A stretch of DNA of 64,000 bases from an uncultured Oscillospiraceae bacterium (GTDB lineage Bacteria > Bacillota > Clostridia > Oscillospirales > Oscillospiraceae), in NCBI GenBank assembly GCA_947623745.1, contig CANQHN010000002.1:1-64000 (forward strand), in the 5' to 3' direction. The number at the start of each line of letters is the position of its first letter. Positions within the stretch are counted from its first letter, which is position 1. Position numbers and translations under genes: made by a program. Below, in pieces: positions 2-16,627 of this stretch. Under the pieces are notes generated by a model, which was not told the DNA's origin, did no database searches, and saw only the letters and a list, made by a program, of their open reading frames with translations.

Positions 2-77
2 CCGGGTGTAGCGCAGTTGGTAGCGCGCATGGTTCGGGACCATGAGGCCGTGGGTTCAAATCCCGCCACTCGGACCA
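2..77 (+). tRNA. tRNA-Pro (anticodon CGG)
   Basis: A complete cloverleaf can be folded: acceptor strands at 2-8 and 67-73, a GTAGCGCAG-type D arm, an anticodon stem CATGG/CCATG enclosing the loop TTCGGGA (anticodon CGG, reads CCG), the T-arm motif GGTTCAAATCC, discriminator A and an encoded CCA at 75-77. Its 3' half is the integration target of the element that follows. Confidence 0.93.
52..77 (+). repeat. attL core (26-nt direct repeat)
   Basis: Identical to 8437-8462 and covering the T arm, acceptor 3' strand and CCA of tRNA-Pro. This is the usual crossover region for tRNA-targeting tyrosine integrases; integration leaves the tRNA intact. Confidence 0.9.
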
Positions 78-116
78 AAAAATTCCCTGTATTTGTTATG
101 AATACGGGGAATTTTT
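78..116 (+). terminator. Terminator after tRNA-Pro
   Basis: An A-rich/T-rich hairpin with arms AATTCCCTGTATT and AATACGGGGAATT ends in a T-run, immediately downstream of the tRNA. After integration this terminator lies inside the element, so the element supplies a replacement terminator for the tRNA transcript. Confidence 0.7.
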
Positions 117-203
117 TCACTTTATTTCGTTTTACGTGCCAGAATAGTTTGATATGCGAATTGAGGTGTTAGTGCTTTACCCCTTAATTGACCCCTTGAC
201 GGA

Positions 204-803
204 CTACACAAACACCCGCAGCGGCCTGGACACAGCTGGGGCCCGCAGGGCCCGCATAGCGGCGGCAAGCGCTTTCCTGTCTGCGTCTTGGCCCAGATAA
301 TACTTGGACACTACCACCGCCCGCTGTGGTTCTGTGAGTGCCTGGAGGGCCGCCTCCAAGGCGGTGTGGAGACGCTCCGCCCGGTCCCGCTCTGTCACAG
401 TCTCCAGGGCCTCTGTGGCTGCTGGGTCCTGGATCAGCTCCCCCAGGTCGCTGCTGTCCTCGCTGTTGGGATCCGCCGGCGCGTCCAGGCTCAGCGGGGA
501 ACACCGCAGCGGATCCGCCTGCTGCTTAGTGGAGCGGCCCCCGCATGTTTCCAGAAAAGCCGATTTCAAGGCGATCCCGTAAAAGGTGAGGAAGCATTGC
601 CCCGGTTCCCACCGTCCCAGCGCGTCAAGAATTGCAAGATAGCCGGCCTGCATGAAATCCTCGGCCGTCGCGCCGCCCCGCACTCCATAGGCCGCCTCCC
701 AGCGCAAGGCTTGCCGGCGGGTGAACCTCCATACCTGGACCCACAGATCCATAGGCTCCCGCTCTCCGGCCTGGACCGCCGCTGCCAGTTCCTCGTTCGT
801 CAT
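204..803 (-). CDS. Sigma-70-like transcription factor, short region 4
   Basis: A 199-residue protein whose N-terminal half (residues about 35-90, with AEDFMQAGYLAILDALGRW and FLTFYGIALKSAF) resembles sigma region 2 as found in phage and plasmid sigma-like regulators of Clostridia. The C-terminal half contains a helix ending LTEPQRAVVVSKYYLGQ, the expected beginning of region 4. The helix-turn-helix that normally follows is replaced by a short stretch DADRKALAAAMRALR, so the DNA-binding part looks shortened by an in-frame loss. The start ATG follows GGAGG-type sequence and lies about 60 nt after the capsid gene. It may have been a late-gene activator of the element; activity is doubtful without an intact region 4. 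Confidence 0.6.
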   Translation of the reverse strand: MTNEELAAAVQAGEREPMDLWVQVWRFTRRQALRWEAAYGVRGGATAEDFMQAGYLAILDALGRWEPGQCFLTFYGIALKSAFLETCGGRSTKQQADPLRCSPLSLDAPADPNSEDSSDLGELIQDPAATEALETVTERDRAERLHTALEAALQALTEPQRAVVVSKYYLGQDADRKALAAAMRALRAPAVSRPLRVFV

Positions 804-822
804 TGCACCAGCCCTCCTATCA

Positions 823-853
823 GAAAGGGCCGCTCCCGGTCAGGGGAACGGCC
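823..853. terminator. Hairpin between capsid and sigma-like genes
   Basis: Arms AAAGGGCCG and CGGCCCTTT lie in the 61-nt gap. The rightward copy ends in a T-rich tract, the leftward copy in TTTCTGAT, so it may work in both directions or as a processing site. Confidence 0.5.
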
Positions 854-864
854 CTTTTGTTGTT

Positions 865-2010
865 TTATTCTGCCTGCACCTTGGCCCGGCGGAAGGCGCT
901 GGACAGCCGCAGCTTGATATCATACCAGGCGGTGAGCACGAACAGATACTCGCCCTTGGCGACGTCCTTATCCGTGTCGTAGATGGCCCCGATATCGTAG
1001 TTGATCCGGCAATAGGAGAGATCACCCACAACAGGATCCTCCGCCTCATCCACCAGGATCACCGGTTTCCCGAACAGGGTAAGGGGCTGGCCCTGGAAGA
1101 AGGTGCCGCTCTGGTTCAGATTGTCCTTCCACATGCTGTACCAGTCTGCGCCGCTCATGACGATGGAGGCATTCCGCCGGAAGGCCAGCGGAAGATCCGC
1201 CAGGGCCTTGGCAACGGCCTCCTGCTTGGTGGCGCCCTGGATCTCCTTCACGGCGTTGTCGGCGGAGTAGAAGGACATCTCCTTGTAGCCCTAGGTGGGC
1301 TCCTTGGCGAACATCCGGGCCAGCTCGTTCACGGCCAGGCCGTTGCGCAGACCGTTCTCGATCTCAGTCACCAGGTTGGTGTCCGTGCCGTGAATGACGG
1401 TATCACTCACGCGGGCCATGACCTTCACCTTGTGGCGGCCATAGACCACGCTGTCGCCCTTCATCTCGATCTCCTTGGCAGTCTCCTTGTCGGTGATGTC
1501 GTCATAGGCTCCATCTACTGTGAAGGCCAGCCTTGGCTCCTCCAGGCCGGTGACGTTGGACATGCGCACCGCTGCCCGCAGCGGATTCTCCACCTTGGGC
1601 TCTACGATGATTTCGTTGCTCAGGTTGGTGGGCAGGAACCGGTCCCCGCCGGCCAGGTCAGGATCCGCCGCCGGAACAGCACCCAGGCCGGCATAGCTCT
1701 TGGCAGCGCCCCCAGCAAAAGCAGCCCGGTAAAAGGTGGCTTTGGCCTTGATGGTTTCACTGTCATTGCCGCCGGTATAGGTAAACTTGTTTTTCACTTG
1801 CTCCATCTGTTTCGCCTCCGTTTCATCGTGCTCCTTCTTCAGCTCCGCATACTGGGCAGCCAGGGAATCCCGGTGCTCCACACGGGCCTTCAAGGTCTCA
1901 TAGGGGATTGAAAAGTCGTTGCCCATCTTGGCGATCTCATCGGCCGCGGCCTGGATCTGCTGTTTCAGAGCGTACAGCTTCTCCTTCTTCTCGAACAGCG
2001 CCTCTGCCAT
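865..2010 (-). pseudogene. HK97-type major capsid protein, split by amber codon
   Basis: Two parts in one reading frame encode an HK97-fold phage major capsid protein. Residues 1-75 form the charged coiled-coil delta region typical of the scaffold segment, followed by FLPTNLSNEIIVEPKVENPL and the A-domain. After 239 residues the frame meets TAG at 1291-1293; the next codons continue without shift into the C-terminal part, readable from ATG at 1278, which includes LFGKPVILVDEAEDP and ends at 865. Joined length is about 380 residues, normal for the family. A GTG at 2016 is an alternative start. The gene is translationally coupled to the 47-residue ORF before it. It is either a nonsense-mutated relic or needs amber suppression; no terminase, portal or protease neighbours it. 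Confidence 0.8.
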
Positions 2011-2012
2011 GT

Positions 2013-2156
2013 TCACACCTGCTTTCTGAGGAACTTGGCGTTTTCACGGATGATCTCGCAGCGCTGCTGCCACTCCTTCGCGCTGATCCGGCGCGGAATG
2101 GCCTTCCCTACGGCTTTTCGGAGAATAGACAATTTCTCCACTATCTTCGAAAACAT
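2013..2156 (-). CDS. Small hypothetical protein (47 aa)
   Basis: A 47-residue basic protein starting MFSKIVEKLSILRKAVGK and ending ENAKFLRKQV. Its TGA at 2015-2013 overlaps the GTG that is the alternative capsid start, so it is coupled to the capsid gene. It has the size and charge of small phage or element proteins of unknown function; I do not recognise a family. Confidence 0.4.
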   Translation of the reverse strand: MFSKIVEKLSILRKAVGKAIPRRISAKEWQQRCEIIRENAKFLRKQV

Positions 2157-2260
2157 CTTACACATTCTCACTGGTCCTTTCCCTCTATATATTTATATTT
2201 TGAAATTGCCAATCGATTGGCAGTTTCAAGCTGTCCATTTCCTTTCTCTCCCGAGGGGAT

Positions 2261-2295
2261 CCGGGGGCGGGTGAAAGGATAAGCCCCGCCCCCGG
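2261..2295. other. GC-rich inverted repeat
   Basis: Arms of 11 nt (CCGGGGGCGGG and CCCGCCCCCGG, at 2261-2271 and 2285-2295) with a 13-nt loop, in the gap between the capsid operon and the next small gene. No T-run follows on either side. Role unknown. Confidence 0.45.
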
Positions 2296-2302
2296 ACAGC
2301 AT

Positions 2303-2346
2303 AAGAAAAAGACATGGGAATCAGCCTGAACGCTGTTTCCCATGCC
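2303..2346 (-). terminator. Terminator for leftward small genes
   Basis: On the minus strand the stem CATGGGAA-CAGC pairs with GCTG-TTCCCATG (one A/A mismatch) and is followed by TCTTTTTCTT. It would end transcripts from the genes at 2410-5900 and separate them from the capsid block. Confidence 0.65.
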
Positions 2347-2409
2347 TCTATTGGCTAACCCTTGCGGGCGGTACTCCTTATACTATATTTAGTATAACAT
2401 GAAACAGCC

Positions 2410-2580
2410 CTAAAAGCAACCCCGCTTGCCAGTTTTCGGCGTGGTCAGATAGATGTGCCGGTATGGCGGATGGGCGTCGCTCTCCTTCACCCTCGCGGCC
2501 GGGTGCAGCCGCAAAAGAGCAGCTAAAACGGCAGCGGCGTCCTCGCGCTCATCCGGGAGAAAGCTTAGCTTAAACTTCAT
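2410..2580 (-). CDS. Small conserved element protein (56 aa)
   Basis: A 56-residue ORF starting MKFKLSFLPDEREDAAAV and ending TGKRGCF, with AAGGAG nine bases before the ATG. Its shape (a hydrophobic beta strand, an acidic stretch, then HPPYRHIYLTT) recurs in my memory of small proteins from integrative elements of gut Clostridia, but no function is known. A hairpin made of GACCGCCTG (2597-2605) and CAGGCGGTC (2666-2674) lies directly upstream of its ribosome binding site and could control translation. Confidence 0.55.
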   Translation of the reverse strand: MKFKLSFLPDEREDAAAVLAALLRLHPAARVKESDAHPPYRHIYLTTPKTGKRGCF

Positions 2581-2718
2581 GCGTTTAACTCCTTCTTTGA
2601 CCGCCTGTCCCTTTTTTGGGGAGGGGTCGCATAGAAAATCCCCCCGCAGTGTCAGGTGAGGAGGCCAGGCGGTCTACGCATTCCCCCCTGCCTGCTTTCA
2701 CAGGTAGGGGGGTAGGGC

Positions 2719-2985
2719 CTACGCCTTGACCGCAGTTCTGCTTTCGTCAGCGAACACCATCCACGCCCTCGCCGCCTTCAGAAAGTGAGCGACGGTGTGA
2801 TTGACTGCCCGAGAAATGTACGTGTCCATCATCTCCAGATCCCCGTCATCCAAACCGTGTTCATAGGCATCATTGATGATGGGGAGCCATACAGCAATGG
2901 CCTCCCGCTGATCTGTGGTCAGCTCCCGGTGGGTCAGGTGCTCCTGATGGGCTATGAGTTCATCGAGCGATACAGGAAAATTCAT
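2719..2985 (-). CDS. Hypothetical element protein (88 aa)
   Basis: An 88-residue mostly helical, acidic protein (MNFPVSLDELIAHQEHL at the start, ending in SRTAVKA). AAGGAGG lies ten bases before the ATG and the ATG overlaps the stop of the upstream gene in an ATGA junction, so the two are translationally coupled. No recognisable domain. It belongs to a leftward string of four small overlapping genes between the replication ATPase and the terminator at 2303-2346. Confidence 0.6.
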   Translation of the reverse strand: MNFPVSLDELIAHQEHLTHRELTTDQREAIAVWLPIINDAYEHGLDDGDLEMMDTYISRAVNHTVAHFLKAARAWMVFADESRTAVKA

Positions 2986-3194
2986 GCTTTAGCTGCCTCC
3001 TTTTTGTCCTTTCGTGCGTTCCTTTCAGCGTTCTGTCCACGCTGGAAACCGTAGTTGTAGACCGCACCCAACATCTTGAAAAAGTCGTCGCTGTTGCCGA
3101 AATCCCAGAATACCAGCATTTCACTGGCTTTGAGTTGATACCGGCCAGGAGGAAATGCCCGCCCCATATTGGCCGCCCATGTCATATCCTTCAT
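2982..3194 (-). CDS. Hypothetical element protein (70 aa)
   Basis: A 70-residue protein beginning MKDMTWAANMGRAFPPGR and ending in a lysine-rich tail. GGAAAGGA precedes ATG 3194, and its first codon overlaps the stop of the zinc-ribbon gene upstream (ATGA), which favours this start over the TTG at 3203. Similar short proteins occur in element cargo; the function is not known to me. Confidence 0.6.
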   Translation of the reverse strand: MKDMTWAANMGRAFPPGRYQLKASEMLVFWDFGNSDDFFKMLGAVYNYGFQRGQNAERNARKDKKEAAKA

Positions 3195-3370
3195 GCTTGA
3201 CAATCCTTTCCCCGCCCTGTTACAATATGGGCGGATTCGTTTAGTTGACTGCTTTCCGGGTCCACTTTGCCGCCGCCGATGTTCGCAGCATCGGCGGCGG
3301 TTTTGCAGTCGCAGACCTCGCCCGGATCGAGGTGAGCGCCGCAGCGCAGGCAGGTGCGGTAGTAACTCAC
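3191..3370 (-). CDS. Small zinc-ribbon protein (59 aa)
   Basis: The frame opened by GTG at 3370 encodes a 59-residue protein with CLRCGAHLDPGEVCDC near the start, a two-pair cysteine arrangement (CxxC and CxC) that can bind one zinc ion. The GTG overlaps the TGA of the upstream gene. The longer upstream extension in this frame lies inside the neighbouring coding region and is less likely. Function unknown; tiny zinc ribbons of this sort are common in phage and element cargo and may bind nucleic acid or host proteins. Confidence 0.5.
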   Translation of the reverse strand: MSYYRTCLRCGAHLDPGEVCDCKTAADAANIGGGKVDPESSQLNESAHIVTGRGKDCQA

Positions 3371-3528
3371 AGCCGCATCTCCCCGCGCGATCTCAGACAG
3401 CCAGGCAGCGCACAGGCGCCGGTCTGACCCCGGCCCTGAGGTGGGACATACCAGGCGCAGAAAGCGCCTGCGCAGGTGGTGAGGCCGTCCGTGGCTTTCA
3501 GGGACAGAGGGCAATACTTTTCTTGCAT
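3367..3528 (-). CDS. Small cysteine-rich protein (53 aa)
   Basis: A 53-residue ORF starting MQEKYCPLSLKATDGLTTC with five cysteines, preceded by AAAGGAG six bases before the ATG. It begins a run of four overlapping small genes (3528 down to 2719) that ends at the terminator at 2303-2346. Spaced cysteines suggest a metal site, but I cannot name a family. Confidence 0.5.
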   Translation of the reverse strand: MQEKYCPLSLKATDGLTTCAGAFCAWYVPPQGRGQTGACALPGCLRSRGEMRL

Positions 3529-3604
3529 GTGATTCTCCTTTCCCAAATTAAAATACCATATATTTCCATAATTTGTTGGAAGCACATAAAAATAACAGCC
3601 GCCT

Positions 3605-3671
3605 TGTGTATGAGCGGTTCCCACTATAGGGGGCAGGCTTTTAGCCCCCTATGGTGGGATACTCATACACA
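3605..3671. other. 26-bp hairpin next to the replication gene
   Basis: Arms 3605-3614 and 3662-3671 pair over 10 bp; after a small internal loop, 3619-3634 and 3644-3659 pair over 16 consecutive positions (one G-T), leaving a 9-nt loop. It lies between the RepA-like gene and the small cargo genes. It could extrude as a cruciform and serve as an origin or initiation structure, or act as a transcript barrier. Confidence 0.7.
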
Positions 3672-3787
3672 TACAAGGAAATCTATTTCAATATAATATA
3701 CTGTTTTTTTGAGGTTCATTTTGGAGAGAAAAAACGGAAGTTTCTGTTTTTTGAGCCCTAGGGAAAAAGTCGGGAAATCATGTTTTC

Positions 3788-4837
3788 TTAGCCTGTCGGT
3801 GGGACTTTGACCACCTTCCCAGATATGCGGGAAAGGCCGGGATGTTCATCTACCATGTTTCGGATGGTCTGGCCGCTCACTCCCAGGTAATCAGCCAGAA
3901 CCTTGACAGTGGGGATTTTTCCGTCTGCACTACAGACATCATAGGCGGCCAGAAGTCTGTGCTTGCGTTTCCGGAGTTTATCTTCCTTGCTAGATCTGGC
4001 GTTCATAGCCCTCCGCCACGCTGGGAGCTCATGGTGCGGTGCTACCTCTTTAGAGTCGAAATGTTCCACGATATGCAGCGGGTAATTAAACCAGATATCT
4101 ACAGGGTCAAATGCTTTGAACTCTCGAAGTGTCCCGGTTACTCTCCAGGCTGTAACCCCTCTTTTTCGACGTTCTGGAGGTAATTCCAACTCAGTAACAT
4201 CGAGTAGAGCGTCTACATCACGGGCGAATACGCCGGAGCCGCTGGCACGGTCTGCGGAACGTTTCCAGCTTTGATCCCCCTTGCTGTGGTGATGGCAATA
4301 GATAATAGAAGAATCGGTTTCAGTAGCAACTTGTTCGAAATAGTTGCAGAATTTTCCCATATCTAGCGCACTGTTTTCATTTCCTGTAAGTACTTTATAA
4401 ATGGGGTCTACCGTAATTGCCTTATATTCCCTGTTTTTTGCCCGGCAAATCAGCTTGGGAGCTAGCTTGTCCATGGGTACAGACCGGCCACGCAGGTTCC
4501 ACACGTCGATGCAATCGATATGCTTTGGGAGCCATCCAGGGACCTCATACACATCCCGAAACCGATGCAGGCAGGACGCCCGGTCCAGCTCCAGATTAAC
4601 GTACATGACCCGCCCTTGGGTGCAGGGGAACCCAAGCCAGGGCTGTCCCTCGGCGATGGAGATGCACAGCTCGATGAGGGCGTAGCTCTTGCCGGCCTTA
4701 CTGGGCCCGGCCAAGAGCATCTTGTGGCCCTGACGGAGCACCCCGTCGATGAGAGGCGGGGCCAGCTCTGGAGATTCATCAAAAAGTGATTTCAAGGTTT
4801 CGACATCCGGGAGATTATCAGACTTATCCTTTGCCAT
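3788..4837 (-). CDS. RepA-like AAA ATPase with C-terminal HTH
   Basis: A 349-residue cytoplasmic protein of the RepA/AAA_25 group (RecA-fold helicase-like ATPases of plasmids, satellites and ICEs). Walker A is GPSKAGKS at about residues 44-51; the Walker B-like strand is YKAITVDPIY near residue 140; IIYCHHHSKGD fits motif H3 near residue 180. The C-terminus (SADGKIPTVKVLADYLGVS) looks like a winged helix that could read the origin. Its ATG overlaps the stop of the gene before it. It probably starts element replication after excision; the long hairpin at 3605-3671 is the nearest candidate site. No separate primase is present. Confidence 0.75.
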   Translation of the reverse strand: MAKDKSDNLPDVETLKSLFDESPELAPPLIDGVLRQGHKMLLAGPSKAGKSYALIELCISIAEGQPWLGFPCTQGRVMYVNLELDRASCLHRFRDVYEVPGWLPKHIDCIDVWNLRGRSVPMDKLAPKLICRAKNREYKAITVDPIYKVLTGNENSALDMGKFCNYFEQVATETDSSIIYCHHHSKGDQSWKRSADRASGSGVFARDVDALLDVTELELPPERRKRGVTAWRVTGTLREFKAFDPVDIWFNYPLHIVEHFDSKEVAPHHELPAWRRAMNARSSKEDKLRKRKHRLLAAYDVCSADGKIPTVKVLADYLGVSGQTIRNMVDEHPGLSRISGKVVKVPPTG

Positions 4838-5127
4838 TATTCGCCCGCCTTCTCCCGCTTGCCGCGCAGATGGACCGTGTGAGCCCGGTACAGTTCCCCG
4901 AGATCCAGGGCGATATCTCTTTTTTGAGGCTTGCCTACCCCCAGGACAGTCAGGCCGGCGCGGTCACACAGGCGCTCGATCAGTTCTGTGGAGCTCTGCC
5001 CCACCAACTGGGCCGCCTGGAGCTGGGCGCGGGTCAGGACAAGCAGTTCATCCCGGTCCTCGCCAGTGCTGTGGTCGTGGACCTTCAGCGGGAAGGCCCG
5101 GACGGTGATGGTGTAGTTGGTGATCAT
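4837..5127 (-). CDS. Hypothetical element protein (96 aa)
   Basis: A 96-residue protein starting MITNYTITVRAFPLKVHDHS, with a polar, mixed alpha/beta composition and no signal or membrane segment. A G-rich SD (AAGGGGGGG) precedes ATG 5127; a TTG nine bases upstream overlaps the previous stop and is an alternative start. It sits between the AlpA-like gene and the RepA-like ATPase and overlaps the latter by one base. This order suggests a replication or control accessory. I do not recognise a domain. Confidence 0.6.
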   Translation of the reverse strand: MITNYTITVRAFPLKVHDHSTGEDRDELLVLTRAQLQAAQLVGQSSTELIERLCDRAGLTVLGVGKPQKRDIALDLGELYRAHTVHLRGKREKAGE

Positions 5128-5132
5128 GGTTG

Positions 5133-5321
5133 TCAACCCCCCCTTTTTCCTGCCTGGGCCTTGACCCAGTCTTCCAGGCCGGCCACATAAACCAACACAC
5201 GGTTTCCGACGGTGAAGGATGGGAAGTCGGCACGGCGGGCGAGGTTATAGGCCGTCGGGGCCGATACGCCCAGCAGCTTTGCCGCCTCCTTGACGCTGAT
5301 CGTCAGCTTGTTCCCGGGCAT
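5133..5321 (-). CDS. AlpA/excisionase-family HTH protein
   Basis: A 62-residue MerR-like helix-turn-helix protein of the excisionase (HTH_17) family: SVKEAAKLLGVSAPTAYNLARR forms the HTH (residues 9-30) and VGNRVLVYVAGLEDWVKAQ the following wing and helix. Such proteins either bend DNA for excision (Xis role) or activate integrase and excision genes (AlpA role). Here it lies in the leftward operon headed by the Cro-like gene and so should be made only when the repressor at 6031-6444 is relieved. Confidence 0.8.
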   Translation of the reverse strand: MPGNKLTISVKEAAKLLGVSAPTAYNLARRADFPSFTVGNRVLVYVAGLEDWVKAQAGKRGG

Positions 5322-5324
5322 GGT

Positions 5325-5696
5325 CTACAGCCCCCTTTCATCATGGACGTGCTGGGTGGTATCTGTACTCACCGGGAGCGCGTCATGGTCTTGCGCCGCC
5401 CGGCCTCGGGGCATCTCTGCCCTAACTTTGGCCTTTTCGAGCGCCGCCCTGGCCGCCTGCCTCTGTGCCTCTGACATTTGCCGTGTCGGGGTGATCCTCA
5501 CCCACGCTTTCGGGATAATGTAATCCGCCGCCCGTCCCCCGTGGCTGGTCCGCTCCAGGCGGTACTTGTCCGTCTGGGCCTGGGCTAGTTTCTCCAGCTT
5601 GTGGAGCAGGGCCACGTTGTGGGTATAGACGCTGGCCGTGGCCTTCTCCTCGTTGAAGTTGATGATGGTTTCCTGCTCATAGCGCGATAGCTGCAT
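5325..5696 (-). CDS. Hypothetical element protein (123 aa)
   Basis: A 123-residue protein beginning MQLSRYEQETIINFNEEK. The first 65 residues resemble a short protein often seen in Clostridia integrative elements (NFNEEKATASVYTHN and RLERTSHGGRAADYIIPK); the last 50 are an alanine- and arginine-rich helical tail. A GGAGG motif overlaps the end of the upstream regulator gene. Function unknown; position between Cro-like and AlpA-like genes suggests early control or replication. Confidence 0.6.
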   Translation of the reverse strand: MQLSRYEQETIINFNEEKATASVYTHNVALLHKLEKLAQAQTDKYRLERTSHGGRAADYIIPKAWVRITPTRQMSEAQRQAARAALEKAKVRAEMPRGRAAQDHDALPVSTDTTQHVHDERGL

Positions 5697-5699
5697 ACC

Positions 5700-5900
5700 T
5701 TACGCCTCCTGTTCGATGATTTCAGCCACGGGGACGCCCAGCCCCGCTGCCAGCTTGCCCGCTGTCCTGGGCTCACAGGTTCCCCGGCGAATAATCGTGC
5801 TGACATTCTGGGCAGAAATGCCGCTGCGCTCAGATAGGTTGCGCTTGGTCAGCCCCATTTCGGCCATCAGGGTTTCAATGCGTCGTGTGTTGATGTTCAT
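5700..5900 (-). CDS. Cro-like XRE regulator
   Basis: A 66-residue single-domain XRE protein: MAEMGLTKRNLSERSGISAQ and NVSTIIRRGTCEPRTAGKLA show the five-helix fold with the HTH at about residues 17-38. It is the first gene of the leftward operon (5900 down to about 2410) and faces the larger XRE gene at 6031. In such an arrangement the short protein usually plays the Cro part, antagonising the repressor and auto-limiting the early operon. Its start is set by GGAGGTG just upstream. Confidence 0.8.
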   Translation of the reverse strand: MNINTRRIETLMAEMGLTKRNLSERSGISAQNVSTIIRRGTCEPRTAGKLAAGLGVPVAEIIEQEA

Positions 5901-5916
5901 TCGGTTTCACCTCCGT

Positions 5917-5936
5917 AATTATTCGTTTGAATAAAT
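5917..5936. promoter_or_regulatory. Operator 1 of the XRE switch
   Basis: Inverted repeat with arms AATTATTC and GAATAAAT around GTTT, one mismatch. The same arms occur perfectly in operator 2. Confidence 0.7.
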
Positions 5937-5963
5937 ATTAACACTTACACACGAATAAGTCAA
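5935..5963 (-). promoter_or_regulatory. Leftward early promoter
   Basis: On the minus strand TTGACT (5963-5958), a 17-nt spacer and TAATAT (5940-5935) drive the Cro-like gene. Operator 1 overlaps the -10 box. Confidence 0.75.
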
Positions 5964-5973
5964 TAGATTTTTC

Positions 5974-5993
5974 AATTATTCTCTTGAATAATT
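5974..5993. promoter_or_regulatory. Operator 2 of the XRE switch
   Basis: A perfect 8-bp inverted repeat (AATTATTC TCTT GAATAATT). It covers the -35 box of the rightward promoter, so the repressor would control its own gene. A half site CGAATAAG lies between the operators at 5952-5959. Confidence 0.75.
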
Positions 5994-6012
5994 TCTGAGC
6001 TCATGATAAAAT
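5984..6012 (+). promoter_or_regulatory. Rightward repressor promoter
   Basis: TTGAAT (5984-5989), 17-nt spacer, TAAAAT (6007-6012), directly upstream of the 6031 gene. Confidence 0.65.
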
Positions 6013-6030
6013 AGCAATGAGGTGATACAC

Positions 6031-6444
6031 ATGGATATTGGGGAATGTATAGCTATCGCAAGAAAGGCCGCAGGGCTAACTCAAGCCCAGCTTGCAGAAA
6101 AAAGTGGAGTTGCTGCTATCACAATTCATCAATACGAACACGGTAAGCGTCAACCTCGCCTTGATATGCTAGGCAAAATTGCTAGGGCCTTAAATACTTC
6201 TGTCTATGAAATGGTTGGCTCAGACTGGAGCGGGATAGATATGTCTGACGCCTTTGGAAGAGATCAATCTACCTCCACGCAATCGATACCTCCACGCGCC
6301 CGACTGGATGCCGCCTATGCACAGTTGAATGTACCCGGCCAGGAGAAAGCCGCTGATGCGGTGGAGACTATCGCAGGAAATCCCAAGTACCAGCGCCAGG
6401 ACCCAGACCCCACCCCCGAAGAAGATCCACCAAAAGGGCAGTAA
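6031..6444 (+). CDS. CI-like XRE repressor
   Basis: A 137-residue protein with an N-terminal XRE HTH (residues 4-58: IARKAAGLTQAQLAEKSGVA and ITIHQYEHGKRQPRLDMLGK) and a polar tail of about 60 residues ending in a proline- and glutamate-rich stretch. No LexA-type peptidase residues are evident, so induction probably depends on an anti-repressor or on another phage rather than on self-cleavage. GAGGTGAT six bases upstream selects ATG 6031 over the GTG at 6022. It faces the Cro-like gene across two matching operators and is the likely maintenance repressor. Confidence 0.8.
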   Translation: MDIGECIAIARKAAGLTQAQLAEKSGVAAITIHQYEHGKRQPRLDMLGKIARALNTSVYEMVGSDWSGIDMSDAFGRDQSTSTQSIPPRARLDAAYAQLNVPGQEKAADAVETIAGNPKYQRQDPDPTPEEDPPKGQ

Positions 6445-6468
6445 ACGCCCACAGAGGAGGTTTTCCCG

Positions 6469-6741
6469 ATGATGTATCCATTCCTGACCCTGGACGACGA
6501 TACGGAGATCGTCCACTCCGAGATGCGGCCGGATGGCAGCGTGAAGGTGTATGTTGAGACGCCGGATGAGAAGGATGGCTTTCACGACGCCACTTGTTTT
6601 TTGCCGGAACACCGCTGGACTGACATCCATGGCTATTCCGACAAGCAGATGGAGCGGTTTCAAGAGATCGTCCGCAACAACGCCCATCTGATTCTGGAAT
6701 TCGCTCAGAAGGGCGGTGTGCTCAGTGCCGCAAATTTTTAG
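6469..6741 (+). CDS. Hypothetical partner of DUF4160 protein (90 aa)
   Basis: A 90-residue acidic protein beginning MMYPFLTLDDDTEIVHSEMR, with WTDIHGYSDKQMERFQ and a C-terminal helix. GAGGAGG precedes the ATG. It overlaps the DUF4160 gene by 26 nt. DUF4160 genes are commonly paired with a small DUF2442-type gene in toxin-antitoxin-like pairs; this protein is of similar size but I do not see a clear DUF2442 motif, so the pairing is inferred from position. Confidence 0.55.
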   Translation: MMYPFLTLDDDTEIVHSEMRPDGSVKVYVETPDEKDGFHDATCFLPEHRWTDIHGYSDKQMERFQEIVRNNAHLILEFAQKGGVLSAANF

Positions 6742-7003
6742 GATCGGGCCCTATATCGTCTACTTCTGGTCCAATGAAAGCGACCCTTTGGAGCCGATCC
6801 ACGTCCACATTGCGGAGGGTCGGGCCACGGCGAACGGCACCAAAGTGTGGATCACCAGTAGGGGGAAAGCGCTGCTGTGCAACAACAACGCCAAGATCCC
6901 CGCGCCCATCCTGCGCAACCTTTTGCGGGTCATAGAGGCCAACAGCGCCGACATTGTGGAAAAGTGGCTTGCCCACTTTGGAGAGATCCGTTACTTCTGC
7001 TGA
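6716..7003 (+). CDS. DUF4160 family protein
   Basis: A 95-residue protein with the DUF4160 pattern: FRIGPYIVYFWSNESDPLEP followed by IHVHIAEGRATANGTKVWI and a C-terminal helix VIEANSADIVEKWLAHFGE. The GTG start at 6716 lies within the gene before it. The family is found beside DUF2442 genes and is suspected, not proven, to form toxin-antitoxin modules. In an integrative element such a pair could stabilise the DNA after excision. Confidence 0.65.
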   Translation: MCSVPQIFRIGPYIVYFWSNESDPLEPIHVHIAEGRATANGTKVWITSRGKALLCNNNAKIPAPILRNLLRVIEANSADIVEKWLAHFGEIRYFC

Positions 7004-7011
7004 TTTTAGGC

Positions 7012-7049
7012 AAAAAAACCTCCCCCGGCGCTGCTAACACCGGGAGAGG
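7012..7049 (-). terminator. Leftward terminator before integrase
   Basis: The minus strand reads stem CCTCTCCCGG/CCGGGGGAGG followed by seven T. It blocks leftward read-through towards the DUF4160 gene; on the plus strand no T-run follows. Confidence 0.5.
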
Positions 7050-7148
7050 CAATGCAGTCAAATACCAGGACGTCAATCAAGGCACCAGCCTGCCCTTTTA
7101 TGATACCACAGAAAGGGCCGCGGTGCAAGAGTGAAAGGAGTTTTTACC

Positions 7149-8302
7149 GTGGCAGAAAAAAGAAAAGAGGGGCCCGCGGTGCCGGCACGATCCGGCAGCG
7201 GAAGGATGGCCGGTGGGAGGCCCGCTTTGTGGTCGGTGTGGACCCCGGCACTGGGAAGGACATCCGGCGTAGCGTCTACGCTCCCACGCAGCGAGAGGCC
7301 CGGCGGAAAATGACCGAGGCCATAGCCGCCCTAGACCGGGGGATCTACCGGGACCCGTGCCGCATGACCCTTGGCCAATGGCCGGACATATGGACGGCAG
7401 AATATCTGAACAGCATCAAGCCCCGGACGTTGGAGGCCTATCTCTCTATCATCAAGACGCATATCCGCCCCGGCCTGGGCGCGGTGAGGCTAGAGCAGCT
7501 GAACGCACACACCATCCAGAAGTTTTACAACAGCCTGGATGGACTCTCGCCCAAAACCGTGAAGAATGTCCACGGCGTACTCCACAAGGCGCTCCAGCAG
7601 GCCGCTGCTATTGGCTATATGACAGCCAACCCCGCTGATGCCTGTTCCCTTCCACGGGCGGAAAAGCCGGAACTGCACCCGCTAGATGAGGATGATACGG
7701 GGCTCTTTATCGAGGCCGTGAAGGGCCACCGCTATGAGGCTGTGTTCCTGTTCACCTTATTCACCGGGGCCCGTCAAGGCGAGGTCCTAGGGCTCACCTG
7801 GGACTGTGTGGACTTCACCACCGGCACTGTCACCATCAATAAGCAGTTGCAAAAAGCGCCTCGCGGATCTGAGTATAGCTTGGTGTCACCCAAGAACAGC
7901 AAGGGCCGCACCATCTTCCCCGCCCCTTACGTCATGCGTCTGCTGAAGGAGCAACACCAGCGTCAGGCGGAGTGGCAGCTCCGGGTGGGCCCGGCCTGGG
8001 AGGGCAGCGGCCTGGTGTTCACCGACGAGCTGGGCCGCCACCTCATGCCACACACGGTCTATCATGCATTTAAGAAGGTTGTCGCCTCCATTGGCCTGCC
8101 AGACGTTAGGTTCCATGATCTTCGTCATAGCTATGCCGTGGCGTCTATTAGAGCCGGGGACGATATCAAAACGGTGCAGGGGAATCTTGGACACGCCACC
8201 ACCAGCTTCACCCTAGACGTCTACGGCCATGTCACCGAACAGATGAAACAGGCCAGCGCGGAGCGTATGGAGCGCTATATCGAGGCCATTATGAGCCGGT
8301 AA
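7149..8302 (+). pseudogene. int: Tyrosine integrase, apparent N-terminal frameshift
   Basis: A phage-type tyrosine recombinase: AP2-like N-terminal strand region (AGTIRQRKDGRWEARF), core-binding SAM-like domain, and a catalytic domain with TGARQGEVLGLTW (Arg I), HDLRHSYAVAS (HxxR) and GHATTSFTLDVYGH with the nucleophile Tyr. It would insert the element into the adjacent attR-side tRNA-Pro end. The natural start is GTG 7149, nine bases after AAAGGAG, giving MAEKRK; the rest of the protein (RGARGAGTIRQR onward) is in the -1 frame. One extra A in the run at 7163-7166 would restore it. Starts further upstream in the long frame (7052, 7097) have no good SD. So the gene is either frameshifted, mis-sequenced in an A-run, or read by slippage. 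Confidence 0.75.
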
Positions 8303-8701
8303 CTCTACCCCTCAAAATACCCCTTACACCATGGGACAGCCTTCTACTGTTTTTACATAATTAACGGAAAAACACGTCAAATTATAAGGAATTGGCCTTG
8401 TTTTACTGCATTTTATAGCAGTTTGACCGGGACAAAGGGTTCAAATCCCGCCACTCGGACCACCTTGCTTGGTCTTATTGGAGAACAATAGACCGTGCAA
8501 CTCAGAAAGAAACACTCCCTGTTATTGGGGGGTGTTTCTTCGTTTCTGCACCAATTTTGCTCTGAGTGAGCTAACAAATGCTACTGAAATTGCACCACTT
8601 TCTGAGTCGATGCCATATCTTCAAAAACGGCAGATTTGGCTTATTTTGAGCCAATGCACCAATTTTGTCACGGATAATTTCAAAAGTGGTGCAAGATATT
8701 T
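8303..8701. other. Non-coding stretch around attR
   Basis: No convincing gene. It holds two CCCCT repeats (8306-8328) that mirror a pair at 178-200 and may be integrase arm sites, the attR core, and a hairpin at 8508-8539 (AGAAACACTCC against GGGGTGTTTCT) that could be the original terminator of the tRNA transcript. From about 8540 the DNA turns AT-rich. Confidence 0.5.
8437..8462 (+). repeat. attR core
   Basis: Perfect 26-nt copy of the tRNA-Pro 3' end (52-77), 135 nt downstream of the integrase stop. Confidence 0.9.
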
Positions 8702-11601: not shown

Positions 11602-11620
11602 AAATCCTATAATTACACTC
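11602..11620. repeat. Island direct repeat, left copy
   Basis: Nineteen bases (AAATCCTATAATTACACTC) repeated perfectly at 16566-16584. Both copies sit 6-10 bases before a terminator hairpin. Together they bracket the nuclease island and are candidate att remnants. Confidence 0.65.
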
Positions 11621-11630
11621 GTACCAAAAT

Positions 11631-11789: not shown

Positions 11790-11951
11790 TTAGACCGCCT
11801 GGGCCAGCAGGGTCCCGATCTTCTCCGCCGCCTCACGCTGCATGTCCTTTGTCGTATGGGCATAGACGTCCAGGGTGAAGCTGGCCGAGTAGTGCCCTAG
11901 GATGCTGGAGACCGTCTTTGCCTCTACCCCGCTCTGGAGTGCCAGGGTCGC
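11790..11951 (-). pseudogene. Tyrosine integrase C-terminal remnant
   Basis: The last 53 codons of a tyrosine recombinase remain: ATLALQSGVEAKTVSSILGH, then YSASFTLDVYAHTTK with the catalytic Tyr and the GH motif. Intact relatives would have HDLRHTF directly before; here that point is the junction to an IS3-type fragment. No start is present, so it is a dead relic of the enzyme that once moved this island. The gene next to an att site and a terminator fits an element end. Confidence 0.8.
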
Positions 11952-12166
11952 ATTTGGAGAATATGCACTATCCGGGTGGTCTCTTTTTTGAGCGTATTGT
12001 AGTCGGTCAGCATGTGGCCTTCTGCATCGTCACCGTATTCCCGCAGCCAGCGGTACAGGGTACTCTGGGCAATCCGGTGCTTTTGGCACAGCTCCTGGAT
12101 AGACGTGCCATTTTGACAGGACACAACGATCTGCTTTTTGAACTCCTGCGGGTACTTCTTCGGTAT
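11952..12166 (-). pseudogene. IS3-family OrfA remnant
   Basis: The frame encodes PKKYPQEFKKQIVVSCQNGT, then IQELCQKHRIAQSTLYRWLR and a leucine-zipper-like stretch EYNTLKK-type, the usual N-terminal HTH of IS3 OrfA transposases. Its normal ATG is replaced by ATA, and the C-terminus runs into the integrase remnant. OrfB is absent. It is a fragment left by an insertion or recombination event. Confidence 0.7.
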
Positions 12167-12244
12167 GGTGCAGCACTTCTTTTTTTGAGTTATTGTGCCA
12201 CGGAGGATTGCTATAAGCGTTTCTCTTTCCCGCAATCTTCTTTG

Positions 12245-12533: not shown

Positions 12534-15305
12534 ATGATGGCACGTGAGCCGTCACTGGAAAAATGGTGCCAGGAGAACGGAAAAGAGGAGCTGTTAAAGC
12601 AGTGGGATCCCCAGGGGAACCCCTTCACTCCAGCGGACATCTACTATCATTCACGAACACAATGCCGCTGGGTCTGTGAAAAGGGGCACAAGTGGTCCGC
12701 CGCTCCGGAGCGGCGGACCAAGCATAAGACTACCGCGTGCCCATACTGCACCAACAGGCTCCTGACCCCGTCTGTCAATAGCCTGGCAGCGCTCTATCCC
12801 TCCCGGGCGGCGTTCTTTGACAGCGTCCGGAACGGAATCACACCGGACCAGATCTTTCCCCAGACCAACCGCCGCTATTGGTGGCGGTGCAAAGCGGGCC
12901 ATGAGTGGCAGGCGACGCCAAACAGCTTTGTGAATGGAACGGGCGAGTGTCCTTACTGTGCCCACCGCAGGGCCAGTCCGGAATATAATCTGGAAACGGA
13001 GTTCCCATTTATTTCCAGCGAATGGGTGTTAGAAAAGAACGATGGCGTCCCGTCTGATTATATGCCGCACAGCGAAAAGTCCGTGTGGTGGAGATGCCAC
13101 TTCCACCCGGATCAAGTGTGGAAATCCCCGATCTGCTACCGCACCACCAGCAGGACCAGCAACTGCCCCGTGTGCCGGAGGGAGCGGAATACCTCATTCC
13201 CGGAGCAGGCCGTGTATTACTATCTAAACATGCTTTTCCCGGACGCTGAGAACCGAAGCCTGGTCGAGGGAAAGGAAGCGGATATCTTTCTCCCCGCGCT
13301 CAAACTGGTGATAGAGTACGACGGCTATTATTATCACATGTCGGACTCGGCACTGCAGAGGGAAGAAAGAAAGGACCGGGAATGGCGCCAGCGGCATGTC
13401 CAGGTCCTGAGGATCAAGGAGTACATATCAGAAACGCCGCCTCCTGTTTCCGATGATATCCTGTGGTATCCGGTTCCGCAGGATTACAGCAAGTATCTTT
13501 TCCTGGAGGATCTGATCCAGCAGCTGGTAGCGCGGCTCAACCGGCAATACAGTTTACATCTGGTCATTCGCCCAGATATCCGTCGGGACAGTCAAACTAT
13601 CATGTCCAGCTATCTCTCCAGGCGGAAAGAGGCCAGCTTAGCTGCTCAGTCACCGGACCTGGCGGCACAGTGGCACAAGACGAGGAATGGCTCCATTACC
13701 CCCGAGCTGGTCGCGGCGACCTCCAGTAAGAAGTTCTGGTGGATGTGCGAAAAGGGTCACGAGTGGCAGGCGTCCCCGTGGAAACGTGTACACGGATACA
13801 GTTGTCCGTATTGTTCCGGTAAAAAAGTCAGCCGGGAGAAGTCTCTGGCCATGCAGAGACCGGAGCTGATCAAATGGTGGCATCTCACGAAAAACGGCGA
13901 TTTGACGCCCTGGCATGTGATGCCTTATTCCGGAAAATCTGTCTGGTGGAAGTGCCCCAAGGGCCATGAATGGCAGATGAAAGTGGCGGACGCTACCCAG
14001 GGATCCCGTTGCCCATACTGTTCTCACCACTGGGTCAGCGAGGAAAATGCGCTGGCCGTACGGCGGCCCGATCTGGCGTTTGAGTGGAACTACGCAAAAA
14101 ACCCGGCTGAGTTGAATCCGAACACAGTCTCCTATTCCTCCGGCAAAAAGGTATGGTGGATCTGCCGGAAAAAGCATGAGTGGCAGGAAAAAGTCAGCAA
14201 CCGCAGTCAGTTGGGGTTGCGCTGCCCGTACTGCTCGGGCCGGCGCGCAACGGAAGAGGACAATCTGGCCGTACTATACCCCACGCTTATTTCTGAGTGG
14301 CATCCCACGAAAAATGGTGATCAGGTTCCCCAACAGTTCCGGCCGAAGTCGAACCGGAAAGTCTGGTGGAAATGTTCCTTGGGTCACGAGTGGGAGGCGA
14401 CGGTATGCAGCCGCACTGCTGGGGCAGGGTGTCCGTACTGCGCGGGAAAGCGCGTGTGGGAGGGGAACTGTCTGGCCAACACCTATCCCCAGATTGCCCG
14501 GTATTGGCACCCAGAAAAAAATGCCCCGCTGACGCCACGGGACGTAGCCCCGCATTCAAGAAAGGAGGTGTGGTGGCGCTGTGAGCGGGGACATGAGTGG
14601 AAGCAAAAAATATGCTACGCGATCGACGCTAAGAGCTGCCCTTACTGCGATGGCCGTTTGGCAACAAGGGAGACCTCTCTGGCAGGGGCCCGACCGGACC
14701 TGGCGTTGGAATGGCACCCCACAAAAAATCTCCCTCTTGCCGCCCACGATCTGACGTTAAAAAGCAAAAAGAAGGTCTGGTGGAAATGTCAGAGAGGCCA
14801 TGAATGGCAGATGGATATCCGTACCCGGGTCAGCGGGATTGGAAACTGCCCCTACTGCATGGGAAAACGCGTGTGTCCTGAAAACGCACTGGCGACGCTC
14901 AGCCCGAAAATTGCCGCCCAGTGGCATCCGGAAAAGAATGGAGACCTAACTCCGGATCAGGTGACCAATCACTCCAGCGCAAAGGCCTGGTGGCTGTGCC
15001 CGCAGGGACACGAATGGGAGGCGGTGATTCGTTCCCGAACCATAATAGGTGCTGGCTGTCCAATCTGCGCGGGCAAAAAAGCGGCTCCTGACTACAACCT
15101 TGCAACTGAGTTTCCGGCTATCGCCGCAGAGTGGGATCACCGCATCAACAAAAAGCCACCGGAGGATTTTCTACCGTTCTCCAACAAAGAGGTATCCTGG
15201 CAGTGCTCTCGGTGCGGGAAAAAGTGGATGGCACGTGTGATCGACCGAACCAAGGCGGGGCGAGGCTGTCCACACTGCCAGAAAGATTCCAGCAAAGCAC
15301 CATAA
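12534..15305 (+). CDS. Eleven-repeat zinc-ribbon protein with internal endonuclease domain
   Basis: A 923-residue soluble protein of unusual modular design. Eleven copies of a roughly 68-residue unit of the PF14311 (DUF4379) zinc-ribbon type each carry a WW-x-C...GHEW...CPYC core: three before and eight after a central domain. Residues 222-300 of that domain look like a Vsr/DUF559-type endonuclease: FPEQAVYYYLN, EADIFLPALKLVIEYDGYYYH (split here by residues 248-268; D250, E261) and RQRHVQVLRIKEY. The repeats probably bind nucleic acid, the core cuts. AAAGGGAG precedes tandem ATGs at 12534 and 12537. It lies 57 nt upstream of a second nuclease gene, between direct repeats, beside integrase debris. 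A defence role is inferred, not shown. Confidence 0.8.
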   Translation: MMAREPSLEKWCQENGKEELLKQWDPQGNPFTPADIYYHSRTQCRWVCEKGHKWSAAPERRTKHKTTACPYCTNRLLTPSVNSLAALYPSRAAFFDSVRNGITPDQIFPQTNRRYWWRCKAGHEWQATPNSFVNGTGECPYCAHRRASPEYNLETEFPFISSEWVLEKNDGVPSDYMPHSEKSVWWRCHFHPDQVWKSPICYRTTSRTSNCPVCRRERNTSFPEQAVYYYLNMLFPDAENRSLVEGKEADIFLPALKLVIEYDGYYYHMSDSALQREERKDREWRQRHVQVLRIKEYISETPPPVSDDILWYPVPQDYSKYLFLEDLIQQLVARLNRQYSLHLVIRPDIRRDSQTIMSSYLSRRKEASLAAQSPDLAAQWHKTRNGSITPELVAATSSKKFWWMCEKGHEWQASPWKRVHGYSCPYCSGKKVSREKSLAMQRPELIKWWHLTKNGDLTPWHVMPYSGKSVWWKCPKGHEWQMKVADATQGSRCPYCSHHWVSEENALAVRRPDLAFEWNYAKNPAELNPNTVSYSSGKKVWWICRKKHEWQEKVSNRSQLGLRCPYCSGRRATEEDNLAVLYPTLISEWHPTKNGDQVPQQFRPKSNRKVWWKCSLGHEWEATVCSRTAGAGCPYCAGKRVWEGNCLANTYPQIARYWHPEKNAPLTPRDVAPHSRKEVWWRCERGHEWKQKICYAIDAKSCPYCDGRLATRETSLAGARPDLALEWHPTKNLPLAAHDLTLKSKKKVWWKCQRGHEWQMDIRTRVSGIGNCPYCMGKRVCPENALATLSPKIAAQWHPEKNGDLTPDQVTNHSSAKAWWLCPQGHEWEAVIRSRTIIGAGCPICAGKKAAPDYNLATEFPAIAAEWDHRINKKPPEDFLPFSNKEVSWQCSRCGKKWMARVIDRTKAGRGCPHCQKDSSKAP

Positions 15306-15362
15306 AAGGTATCCGGAAACTCCCGCAGGAGTGATGGTTTGTTATAGATAATTAGGGAGAGA

Positions 15363-16319
15363 TTGATGATGAAATTAGGAAAGGCTTTTGAACTGTTTAT
15401 AAAGAACCTCCTGATAAGTGTCGGCTTTTCTGAGGTTAAGTCAGATGGGTTATATGTGTTTGATGGTGCGGCCGGACAGATGTTACAGGGGCTGGGGGAA
15501 GCGCATAACGCAGACGTCCTTCTGGAGCCGCCGGTCCAAACACCATTTTATTCTCAGTCAAGGCTTCTGATTGAATGTAAAGATTATAGAACCAAGATTG
15601 GCCTTAATACGGTAAGAAGCGCTTTAGGGCTAAAGGAAGATATCAACAACTTTAATATTGTGGATTCCGGAAAGCTCAAAGCCAGAAGGGCGCAGAGACG
15701 TCATAGTTTTTTACCTACCTATGAGAGATACTCCTATCAGGTCGCGATAGCCTCACTGAACGGATACACATCGCAGGCTCAAGAATTTGCGGCAACTTAT
15801 AGGATTCCTCTTCTTGAATTTGATAGGCTGCCTTTTTGGAGCGAGTTTTGCGGAATACTTGGATATGGAGACGGCTTTCATTGGAATCGTGGTACGCGTG
15901 AGCGTTATACTCTGACAGACGTCTCGGAAGAGCAAATCATTGATTTGGCTCGCAGGATAGGTCAGCGCATGGCTTTGGCCATAACAAGCTCCGGGCAGAT
16001 CCTCTTTTTGTATCATGTGCAAGACAAAAATATAGAGTTCCCTGATGACTATAGGCTGCACTGGGAATCACCCGGTAGTCCTTGGCGGCTGTCTTCTAGA
16101 GGTCAGTCATATTTGTTCCAATTGCCCGATGACATCATGAAGCAGTGGTTGGAAAATGCAACGGATGAGTTGAACATGAAGAAGGCAGCAATTGACTGTA
16201 AAGTAGACTTCATGTCTAATATGGTCGTCTATTATACGCAGTATGACAGGCCAGTCATTCGGATGATCTCTATTGATAAGTATCAGCTTAAAGAAGCTCG
16301 AAGGGCCTTAAAACTGTGA
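15363..16319 (+). CDS. PD-(D/E)XK (Mrr-like) restriction endonuclease-like protein
   Basis: A 318-residue soluble protein. The N-terminal 150 residues have a restriction-endonuclease fold: helix GKAFELFIKNLLISVGF with E10, AHNADVLLEP with D51 and RLLIECKDY with E71 and K73, which form the D...ExK site. RSALGLKEDINNF follows. The C-terminal 150 residues are a mixed domain I do not recognise, perhaps for target or partner recognition. GGGAGAG precedes the ATGs at 15363-15368. It follows the zinc-ribbon nuclease at short distance in the same direction, so the two are likely an operon and may act together against foreign DNA. Confidence 0.75.
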   Translation: MMMKLGKAFELFIKNLLISVGFSEVKSDGLYVFDGAAGQMLQGLGEAHNADVLLEPPVQTPFYSQSRLLIECKDYRTKIGLNTVRSALGLKEDINNFNIVDSGKLKARRAQRRHSFLPTYERYSYQVAIASLNGYTSQAQEFAATYRIPLLEFDRLPFWSEFCGILGYGDGFHWNRGTRERYTLTDVSEEQIIDLARRIGQRMALAITSSGQILFLYHVQDKNIEFPDDYRLHWESPGSPWRLSSRGQSYLFQLPDDIMKQWLENATDELNMKKAAIDCKVDFMSNMVVYYTQYDRPVIRMISIDKYQLKEARRALKL

Positions 16320-16352
16320 TTACTTTAATTGCAACAGGGCTGACTGAACAGC

Positions 16353-16529
16353 GTGTACAAGGTTGATGTATCGGCTGGTGAATTTCAGGAGGTCATAAAG
16401 AGCCAGCTTCCCTGGGAGATGATCTGCGCCGATAACGTCCTAAAATATATGGTCGGCGAAGGTCATCTGTGCGATGTGATCACACAGGTCACTGCGCTTG
16501 ACCGCACGATTAATAAAACCTCTTGCTGA
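16353..16529 (+). pseudogene. Protein fragment of unknown family (58 aa)
   Basis: An open frame from GTG 16353 encodes VYKVDVSAGEFQEVIKSQLP, then WEMICADNVLKYMVGEGHLC and ends LDRTINKTSC. Codon use looks genuine and the composition is protein-like, but there is no ribosome binding site and no start context, so it may be the tail of a longer gene cut when the island inserted. Function unknown. Confidence 0.4.
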
Positions 16530-16565
16530 CAGTTTCCAAACCATTGATACTACCGGGTTTCTTTC

Positions 16566-16584
16566 AAATCCTATAATTACACTC
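16566..16584. repeat. Island direct repeat, right copy
   Basis: Perfect copy of 11602-11620, 4,964 bp away, again just before a strong hairpin. Confidence 0.65.
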
Positions 16585-16590
16585 CGATCA

Positions 16591-16627
16591 CGTCGGAGCA
16601 AAGTTTGCTTTGCTCCGACGTTTTTTT
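16591..16627 (+). terminator. Stem-loop terminator c
   Basis: Thirteen-bp perfect arms (CGTCGGAGCAAAG and CTTTGCTCCGACG), TTTG loop, seven T. After it, a sequence like CCAAAT-GA-CCCGCT recurs from 11544-11559. Confidence 0.75.

Follow-up and report, generated by a model that had tools for sequence, protein, structure and literature searches.

In the 64,000-nt stretch of DNA analysed here (the window, from an uncultured Oscillospiraceae bacterium), two adjacent genes on the forward strand encode a 923-aa zinc-repeat protein with a predicted nuclease core and a putative Mrr-like PD-(D/E)XK protein, hereafter the partner. A preliminary description of this DNA had reported both open reading frames (ORFs; 12534-15305 and 15363-16319, both on the + strand) as lying 57 nt apart, and they are present as claimed. 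The pair is enclosed by a 19-base direct repeat, identical at 19/19 bases (11602-11620 and 16566-16584), and many copies of this 19-mer sit at the end of a conserved element of ~80 bp that we call site A. With slightly more confidence than doubt, we read the pair as the cargo of this repeat-bounded segment of ~5 kb, formed by a predicted homing-endonuclease-type cutter and a predicted Mrr-like nuclease, each likely acting alone on foreign DNA. All coordinates are positions in the window unless a locus (L followed by a number) is named, and the features of the segment are the following.

11602..11626 (+): left boundary, the 19-base core AAATCCTATAATTACACTC followed by GTACCA; only the core half of site A, then a hairpin and T-run
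11817..11951 (-): tyrosine-integrase C-terminus remnant (tblastn; 45 residues, 44% identical to the window integrase)
11924..12235 (-): fragment of a transposase HTH (HTH_Tnp_1; Pfam)
12534..15305 (+): 923-aa zinc-repeat protein, with 3 DUF4379 repeats, a predicted EDxHD/Vsr core and 8 DUF4379 repeats (Pfam, alignment, fold search)
12591..13181 (+): DUF4379 repeats 1-3 (12591-12758, 12810-12965, 13014-13181; genome profile search)
13152..13619 (+): nuclease core as modelled, residues 207-362, with predicted active-site residues E224, E248, D250, E261, H268 and K280
13659..15284 (+): DUF4379 repeats 4-11 (genome profile search; eight starts from 13659 to 15120)
15366..16319 (+): Mrr-like PD-(D/E)XK protein, predicted, listed with 318 aa (ORF listed from TTG 15363)
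16513..16592 (+): site A (~80 bp) with its 19-base core at 16566-16584; right boundary, 194 nt past the partner
16591..16627 (+): hairpin and T-run of the type found directly behind tRNA genes in the genus; chromosomal side of the boundary

Together with the two genes, the segment (11602-16590, roughly 5 kb) contains the integrase and transposase remnants. None of 100 shuffled windows had two matches to the 19-mer, even with up to three mismatches allowed, and the genome from which the window comes contains the 19-mer four times without mismatch, once with one mismatch and twice with two. In 12 of 14 genus loci looked at, a hairpin terminator of the type behind the segment comes immediately after a tRNA gene, which would be expected had all the sequence from position 78 on been inserted behind the tRNA-Pro gene that opens the window. 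When we looked for the window's own empty site, its DNA flank matched mainly this tRNA-type terminator, and the flanking DUF4832 gene had no match in 63 other genus genomes. We consider it quite probable that the segment is, or was, a site-A cassette. The preliminary description had also placed the pair beside integrase debris, which is right for the integrase-like (11817-11951) and HTH_Tnp_1 fragments inside the segment and wrong for the integrase gene at 7052-8302, as this belongs to a separate prophage-like element.

Two other interpretations of the repeats were discarded. RNAalifold predicted 0 pairs in 14 aligned sites, which speaks against site A as an RNA element, and the left arm of the 19-mer is not the end of a recombinase gene, as the upstream reading frames vary from copy to copy. 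At L193 and L189, the core of site A is followed ~10 bp later by a second, inverted core, an arrangement that resembles the paired arms of a recombinase crossover site.

Site A in related genomes

Site A was detected at E <= 1e-9 in 14 of 64 genus genomes and in 20 of 295 order genomes, and at E <= 0.001 in 16/64 and 44/295, respectively, where the weak ones may be due to chance. As the order search scored 15 candidates per genome, the 44/295 mixes likely chance matches with missed sites, and we rely on the 20/295. For the analysis of its placement we used 31 loci with 37 strong sites (the window plus loci taken from the best matches), a non-random sample whose counts are no population rates.

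In 29/37 sites the end of an ORF of >= 90 aa is located upstream on the same strand within 400 nt of site A, and in 23/37 within 60 nt; 5,000 random positions taken from these loci gave 22% and 5.5%. The window's site A, 194 nt behind its ORF, is among the farther ones. A tRNA-Pro gene is located upstream on the same strand, at <= 4 kb, in 10/37 sites and in 0/37 for each of the three control placements (upstream on the opposite strand, and downstream on either strand); as 11 of the 37 sites have less than 4 kb of upstream sequence, a tRNA-Pro could be missed there. Furthermore, 24 of the 37 sites end in CACTC(C/G)GACCA, which is the 3' end of the upstream tRNA-Pro genes. Two core-only loci, L168 (with a tRNA-Pro ~95 bp upstream of the core) and L194, stand outside the 31-locus counts. 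The first of them (5823-6022, C2 in the window genome) consists of a tRNA-Pro(ggg) and a lone core, a gene-less empty or minimal unit similar to the microCIMEs (gene-less relatives of cis-mobilizable elements, CIMEs) considered below.

One pair of genomes shows an exact insertion behind a tRNA gene. At L192 (2815-4795, genome G015), a tRNA-Pro, DarT, a macro-domain gene and site A lie within 2 kb, and in genome G033 (L275), whose flanks are 95-97% identical to those of G015, the tRNA-Pro runs straight into the sequence found past site A in G015. The two genomes differ by an exact 1.9-kb insertion at the tRNA-Pro 3' end, with ~12 bp of overlap and no visible remnants. The coding part of the G015 flank is matched in 13 other genus genomes, which at 69-81% identity are too diverged for an exact comparison. 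In other loci site A is seen in single-gene units arranged in arrays with a spacing of 1.0-1.6 kb: L191, in the window genome, has three copies with one gene each before the second and the third, and L254 (7031-12438) has four single-gene units in which site A lies 1-46 nt past the ORF ends. The genes that it directly follows are unrelated and spread over many genera. Integrases were sought in the site A loci with one query only, which matched in L186, L188, L189 and the window; any lack of an integrase holds at this sensitivity. L257 was considered as a second zinc-repeat cassette and rejected, as its zinc-repeat fragment lies on the outer side of site A. We regard site A as the likely end of small gene insertions, part of which lie immediately after tRNA-Pro genes.

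The cargo of these units was analysed with Pfam on 40 + 8 proteins and with PADLOC on 38 (25 of 172 matched families shown) + 10; cargo ORFs were called by length, which could have overlooked small genes. In 7 of the 31 loci there was a gene belonging to a known or candidate defence family:

L192: DarT and macro
L187: HEC-01A and DUF4276
L188: GmrSD
L191: PDC-M24A/B and FRG
L254: retron-type reverse transcriptase (RT), class RT_VI (E 7.2e-76), two DUF4417 proteins and a shorter relative
L257: RT and FRG
L265: AbiV

The remaining cargo comprised DUF4417, DUF6883, DUF4062, a weak AAA match or nothing known, with many genes lacking a Pfam family, and at two loci it was not defence-like (CAP/LysM in L271, and an HTH gene on the other strand in L263). 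The defence setting that had been proposed for the window finds partial support here, in that relatives of its segment carry defence genes in these seven loci. At two places of the window genome, L191 (3284-4258) and L167 (4481-5467), there are FRG-domain genes that closely resemble each other and precede a site A, possibly as a result of recent copying.

The alternative that survives best, a serious one although we hold it for the lesser part, is that the repeats mark ordinary decayed elements, that is, CIME-like remnants of prophages or integrative and conjugative elements stacked at a tRNA-Pro hotspot; this would be compatible with our view of the encoded enzymes. As described in PMC7563491, CIMEs span 1.2-13 kb, carry att sites and lack an integrase, and they and the gene-less microCIMEs are stacked at a gene 3' end. 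Site-A units share with these CIMEs the small size, the att-type repeats, the lack of an integrase and the stacking at one target gene, and both the integrase and transposase remnants in the window segment and the gene-less L168 unit behind its tRNA-Pro speak for decay. However, they differ from the CIMEs described there in that they often contain one or two genes, with the same conserved ~80-bp site just past the stop codon of unrelated genes in many genera. Because of the single-gene arrays and the clean DarT/macro insertion, the site-A pattern is more regular than the decay of larger elements would give. Whether the units form a distinct cassette system instead of ordinary decayed elements is a question on which we stop just short of an even judgement in favour.

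Among better known systems, the layout of the site-A units is similar to that of integron cassettes, in which each unit has one gene and one recombination site, the units form arrays and the cargo can include defence genes. However, site A has no conserved fold of the attC type according to the RNAalifold result given above, we recognised no integron integrase, and it is a tRNA gene that serves as the anchor. The units can also be likened to pdif modules, which are integrase-poor and carry toxin-antitoxin genes but have XerC/XerD sites, and to tycheposons, which are tRNA-anchored cargo elements but bring their own recombinase. We found no account of such cassettes in the papers searched, which is weak evidence of novelty, as absence is no proof. 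The cassette family appears integrase-poor and tRNA-Pro-anchored, and we infer that its members could be mobile and could serve in phage defence.

The zinc-repeat protein

Pfam identified 11 stretches of PF14311 (DUF4379, a probable treble-clef zinc finger) in the 923-aa protein, with a whole-protein E of 1.8e-182 and 592 bits against a cut-off of 24.5, and no PF14311 matches other than these 11 were listed for the window genome. The 3 + 8 repeats flank residues 217-375, and their starts are 68-73 residues apart inside each block, in good agreement with the eleven repeats of ~68 residues around a core that had been noted before. The search for relatives yielded 2,779 at E <= 0.001 among 7,994 scored. 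Within the best 120 of these, which were the ones listed, we took 11 full-length homologues (same length, >= 58% identity) for alignment; they are 58-67% identical and keep the 3 + 8 layout. The mean identity was 0.66 for the same repeat across the 12 proteins and 0.39 for different repeats within one protein, so that the repeats have not been homogenised and each keeps its own form, consistent with the earlier remark that the units differ from one another. Distinct and individually kept repeats fit a module-by-module reader, although they are no proof of one. It is quite probable that the eleven-repeat array binds DNA; that it reads nucleic acids, as first proposed, we can only infer.

Regarding the core, the fold search with its predicted model gave the homing endonuclease I-Bth0305I (PDB 3r3p) as the best match, followed by Vsr (1cw0, 1vsr), and a profile of the core sequence matched 3r3p at 6e-8. 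This is the nuclease fold that had been sought in the core. D250 and E261, the residues singled out in the preliminary description, are invariant in the window protein and its 11 homologues, together with E224, E248, H268, K295 and E296. In a more diverse set of 26 cores there are seven invariant positions, which include predicted active-site residues: E224, E248, D250, E261 and K280 are invariant and H268 is present in at least 90%. The name of the motif, EDxHD, comes from the literature, and the role of each residue is a prediction. We are highly confident that the core adopts an EDxHD/Vsr-type nuclease fold, as modelled.

Proteins of this kind have been published, and the large protein departs from them in its layout and setting. 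According to PMC12350094, homing endonucleases of phage group II introns join an EDxHD/Vsr-like nuclease to several domains of ~60 aa that have a distant relationship to CapR, DUF4379 and DUF723. In the enzymes described there, three to five domains precede a C-terminal nuclease and the gene is intron-borne, whereas the window protein has eleven domains split 3 + 8 and is encoded by a free-standing bacterial gene in a repeat-bounded segment. With I-Bth0305I and Vsr it shares the fold of the core, and with 3r3p also sequence similarity, in a comparison limited to the catalytic domain, which is all that the deposited 3r3p chain contains. Vsr nicks T:G mismatches, and its solved chains are short, unlike the 923-aa protein.

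An alternative is a wholly selfish zinc-repeat protein, that is, a free-standing homing endonuclease which lies in this segment by chance and brings the host no benefit; we regard this as rather unlikely. In its favour, a homing endonuclease is the best match in both fold and sequence, and the outgroup described in PMC12350094 sits in introns. Moreover, the top phage family for the protein is PHROG 559 ('HNH endonuclease', E 6.8e-73), and a relative is encoded in 144 stretches of viral contigs, from which 79 loci were kept. However, a scan of the window and three viral loci with Rfam gathering scores gave only tRNA, with weaker intron matches not sought, and we discarded an intron-borne gene on account of the intact, separate ORF and the lack of an Rfam intron family; inteins were not specifically sought. 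The 11 full-length homologues are conserved throughout, and the bounding repeat belongs to a family whose cargo includes defence-type genes. A selfish gene may also interfere with competitors, as PMC11620839 reports a phage intron endonuclease that can block a rival phage. When compared with PADLOC-DB, the protein fitted no anti-phage system model, the best match being HEase (E 0.0068 for the whole protein and 0.0021 for its first 422 residues). It seems somewhat probable that the 923-aa protein would cut or nick one long site, and we are evenly divided on whether it may work against invading DNA beyond mere self-spread.

The Mrr-like partner and the surroundings of the pair

The partner ORF is listed from TTG 15363, which is followed by ATGs at 15366 and 15369, and most of the homologues shown start at the second ATG; the TTG is probably not used, and 15366 or 15369 is the likelier start. 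The only Pfam match was Mrr_cat (PF04471), at 20.9 bits against a cut-off of 21, and some homologues carry this family. Among 387 relatives at E <= 0.001, 54 aligned sequences have H48-N49-A50-D51 and E71-C72-K73 (318-aa numbering) invariant, which confirms the motif D51, E71-x-K73 that had been pointed out. The predicted model (pLDDT 73) found no match at E <= 0.001 in the PDB fold search, and the top five matches were all PD-(D/E)XK proteins: AF1548, MspJI (two chains), EndoMS and FokI. The partner had no match in PADLOC-DB at E <= 1. Judging by its motifs and a weak fold support, it is predicted to be a Mrr-like PD-(D/E)XK enzyme, having this motif in common with the Mrr_cat/MspJI-like restriction enzymes, although it falls just under the Pfam cut-off, its fold matches are weak and its C-terminal half has no assignment. 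It is also rare, as it was found in 1/99 relative genomes and 1/391 class genomes, in both cases the window genome itself. A wider genome collection had it at 20 loci, to which 1 viral locus was added, and the search of plasmids and phages gave one distant plasmid match and none in phages.

The preliminary description had regarded the two genes as one dedicated two-nuclease anti-phage system. Their 57-nt spacing on the same strand of the same segment, the nuclease-like character of both proteins and the partly defence-like cargo of related segments would agree with this. However, a profile search that does find the window gene detected the zinc-repeat gene in 0/21 partner loci in the flanks fetched (10 kb at most and frequently shorter, since several partner contigs are short; two of the loci, L016 and L033, look like the same source). 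Except for the partner itself, no protein group was present in more than 4 of 22 loci compared, which leaves no widely shared neighbour. Of 20 partner genomes, 4 have a zinc-repeat relative (a strong one in the genome of L014, shorter or weak ones in the other three), in each case outside the fetched flanks. The expected co-occurrence outside the window genome did not materialise, and the 0/21 loci together with the whole-genome searches give no support to a conserved two-gene module.

Furthermore, a tRNA-Pro lies upstream of the partner on the same strand in 3/20 partner loci. In L017 and L019 the partner is located ~100 nt behind it, without a zinc-repeat gene, and the two loci are 94% identical from the tRNA through ~60 nt past the partner, the only other alignments being one at 67% farther upstream and one to a second, partial tRNA copy. 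In L013, the tRNA-Pro is ~1.5 kb upstream with a transposase between, and a degenerate site A lies 2.4 kb downstream of the partner, with a nucleotidyltransferase/HepT-like pair between. The placement in these three loci indicates that elsewhere the partner is tRNA-Pro cargo without the zinc-repeat gene. A dedicated two-nuclease system is consequently improbable in our opinion, and the partner very probably works separately from the zinc-repeat protein; the two genes are likely separate passengers, each of which would attack foreign DNA. In L018 (9800-10000) a decayed-looking tRNA-Pro-like stretch, seen by eye and not called by ARAGORN, lies just before the partner gene and suggests that the unit may carry a tRNA copy. 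The weakest alternative, a zinc-repeat protein that acts on RNA or as a scaffold with an inactive core, is very improbable, as the seven invariant positions in 26 diverse cores would be needless for it.

Upstream of the segment, the window contains the following features.

2..77 (+): tRNA-Pro, anticodon cgg (ARAGORN, Rfam tRNA); presumed anchor of the whole accretion
52..8462 (no strand assigned): separate prophage-like element, outside the cassette, with 26-bp direct repeats at 52-77 and 8437-8462
865-1278 and 1291-2016 (-): capsid-family ORFs of this element (family matches)
3788-4837: AAA ATPase of this element
7052-8302: integrase of this element

The 26-bp repeats correspond to the tRNA-Pro 3' end, and the element, which spans 8.4 kb, stops upstream of where the gene pair begins. 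Behind it lie two overlapping ORFs of 469 and 113 aa in different frames (8702-10335, -), which may represent one frameshifted surface-type gene, and between the element and the cassette there is a stand-alone 131-aa protein with a CdiA_C match (10869-11264, +; E 2e-10). Adjoining the right boundary, the gene of a 587-aa coiled-coil protein (16770-18533, -) contains five direct repeats of ~300 nt (17222-18262), 65-86% identical to the reference copy.

Proposed mechanism and significance

In the mechanism that we propose for the zinc-repeat protein, its eleven treble-clef modules would grip a long DNA site, three on one side and eight on the other, and would position the EDxHD/Vsr core so that it cuts or nicks within that site. 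Any invader bearing the site, be it a phage, a plasmid or a rival element, would be cut, and a genome without the site would be spared. A putative tyrosine recombinase acting in trans could move the segments by recombining site A with the 3' end of tRNA-Pro, which would leave the tRNA whole, and repeated entry would build arrays. The Mrr-like protein would be an independent passenger that cuts modified or foreign DNA.

Taken jointly, these proposals would mean that Clostridia of this order hold unrecognised integron-like cassettes without an integrase of their own, in which single defence genes tagged with site A just past the stop codon enter at tRNA-Pro 3' ends and stack into swappable immunity arrays, and that in one cassette, with its eleven-module EDxHD nuclease that reads a long site, a homing endonuclease has been turned into an immune weapon. 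We put forward this joint claim tentatively, leaning somewhat against it as a whole. If true, site A would be a handle for unknown defence genes, any sequence between a tRNA-Pro and site A or between two sites being a candidate immune cassette, and the cassettes would be a second solution, besides integrons, for building single-gene arrays, with the tRNA 3' end as the entry point. Finally, the zinc-repeat nuclease would be a natural reader of long DNA sites with eleven non-identical modules, the code of which could be directly tested.

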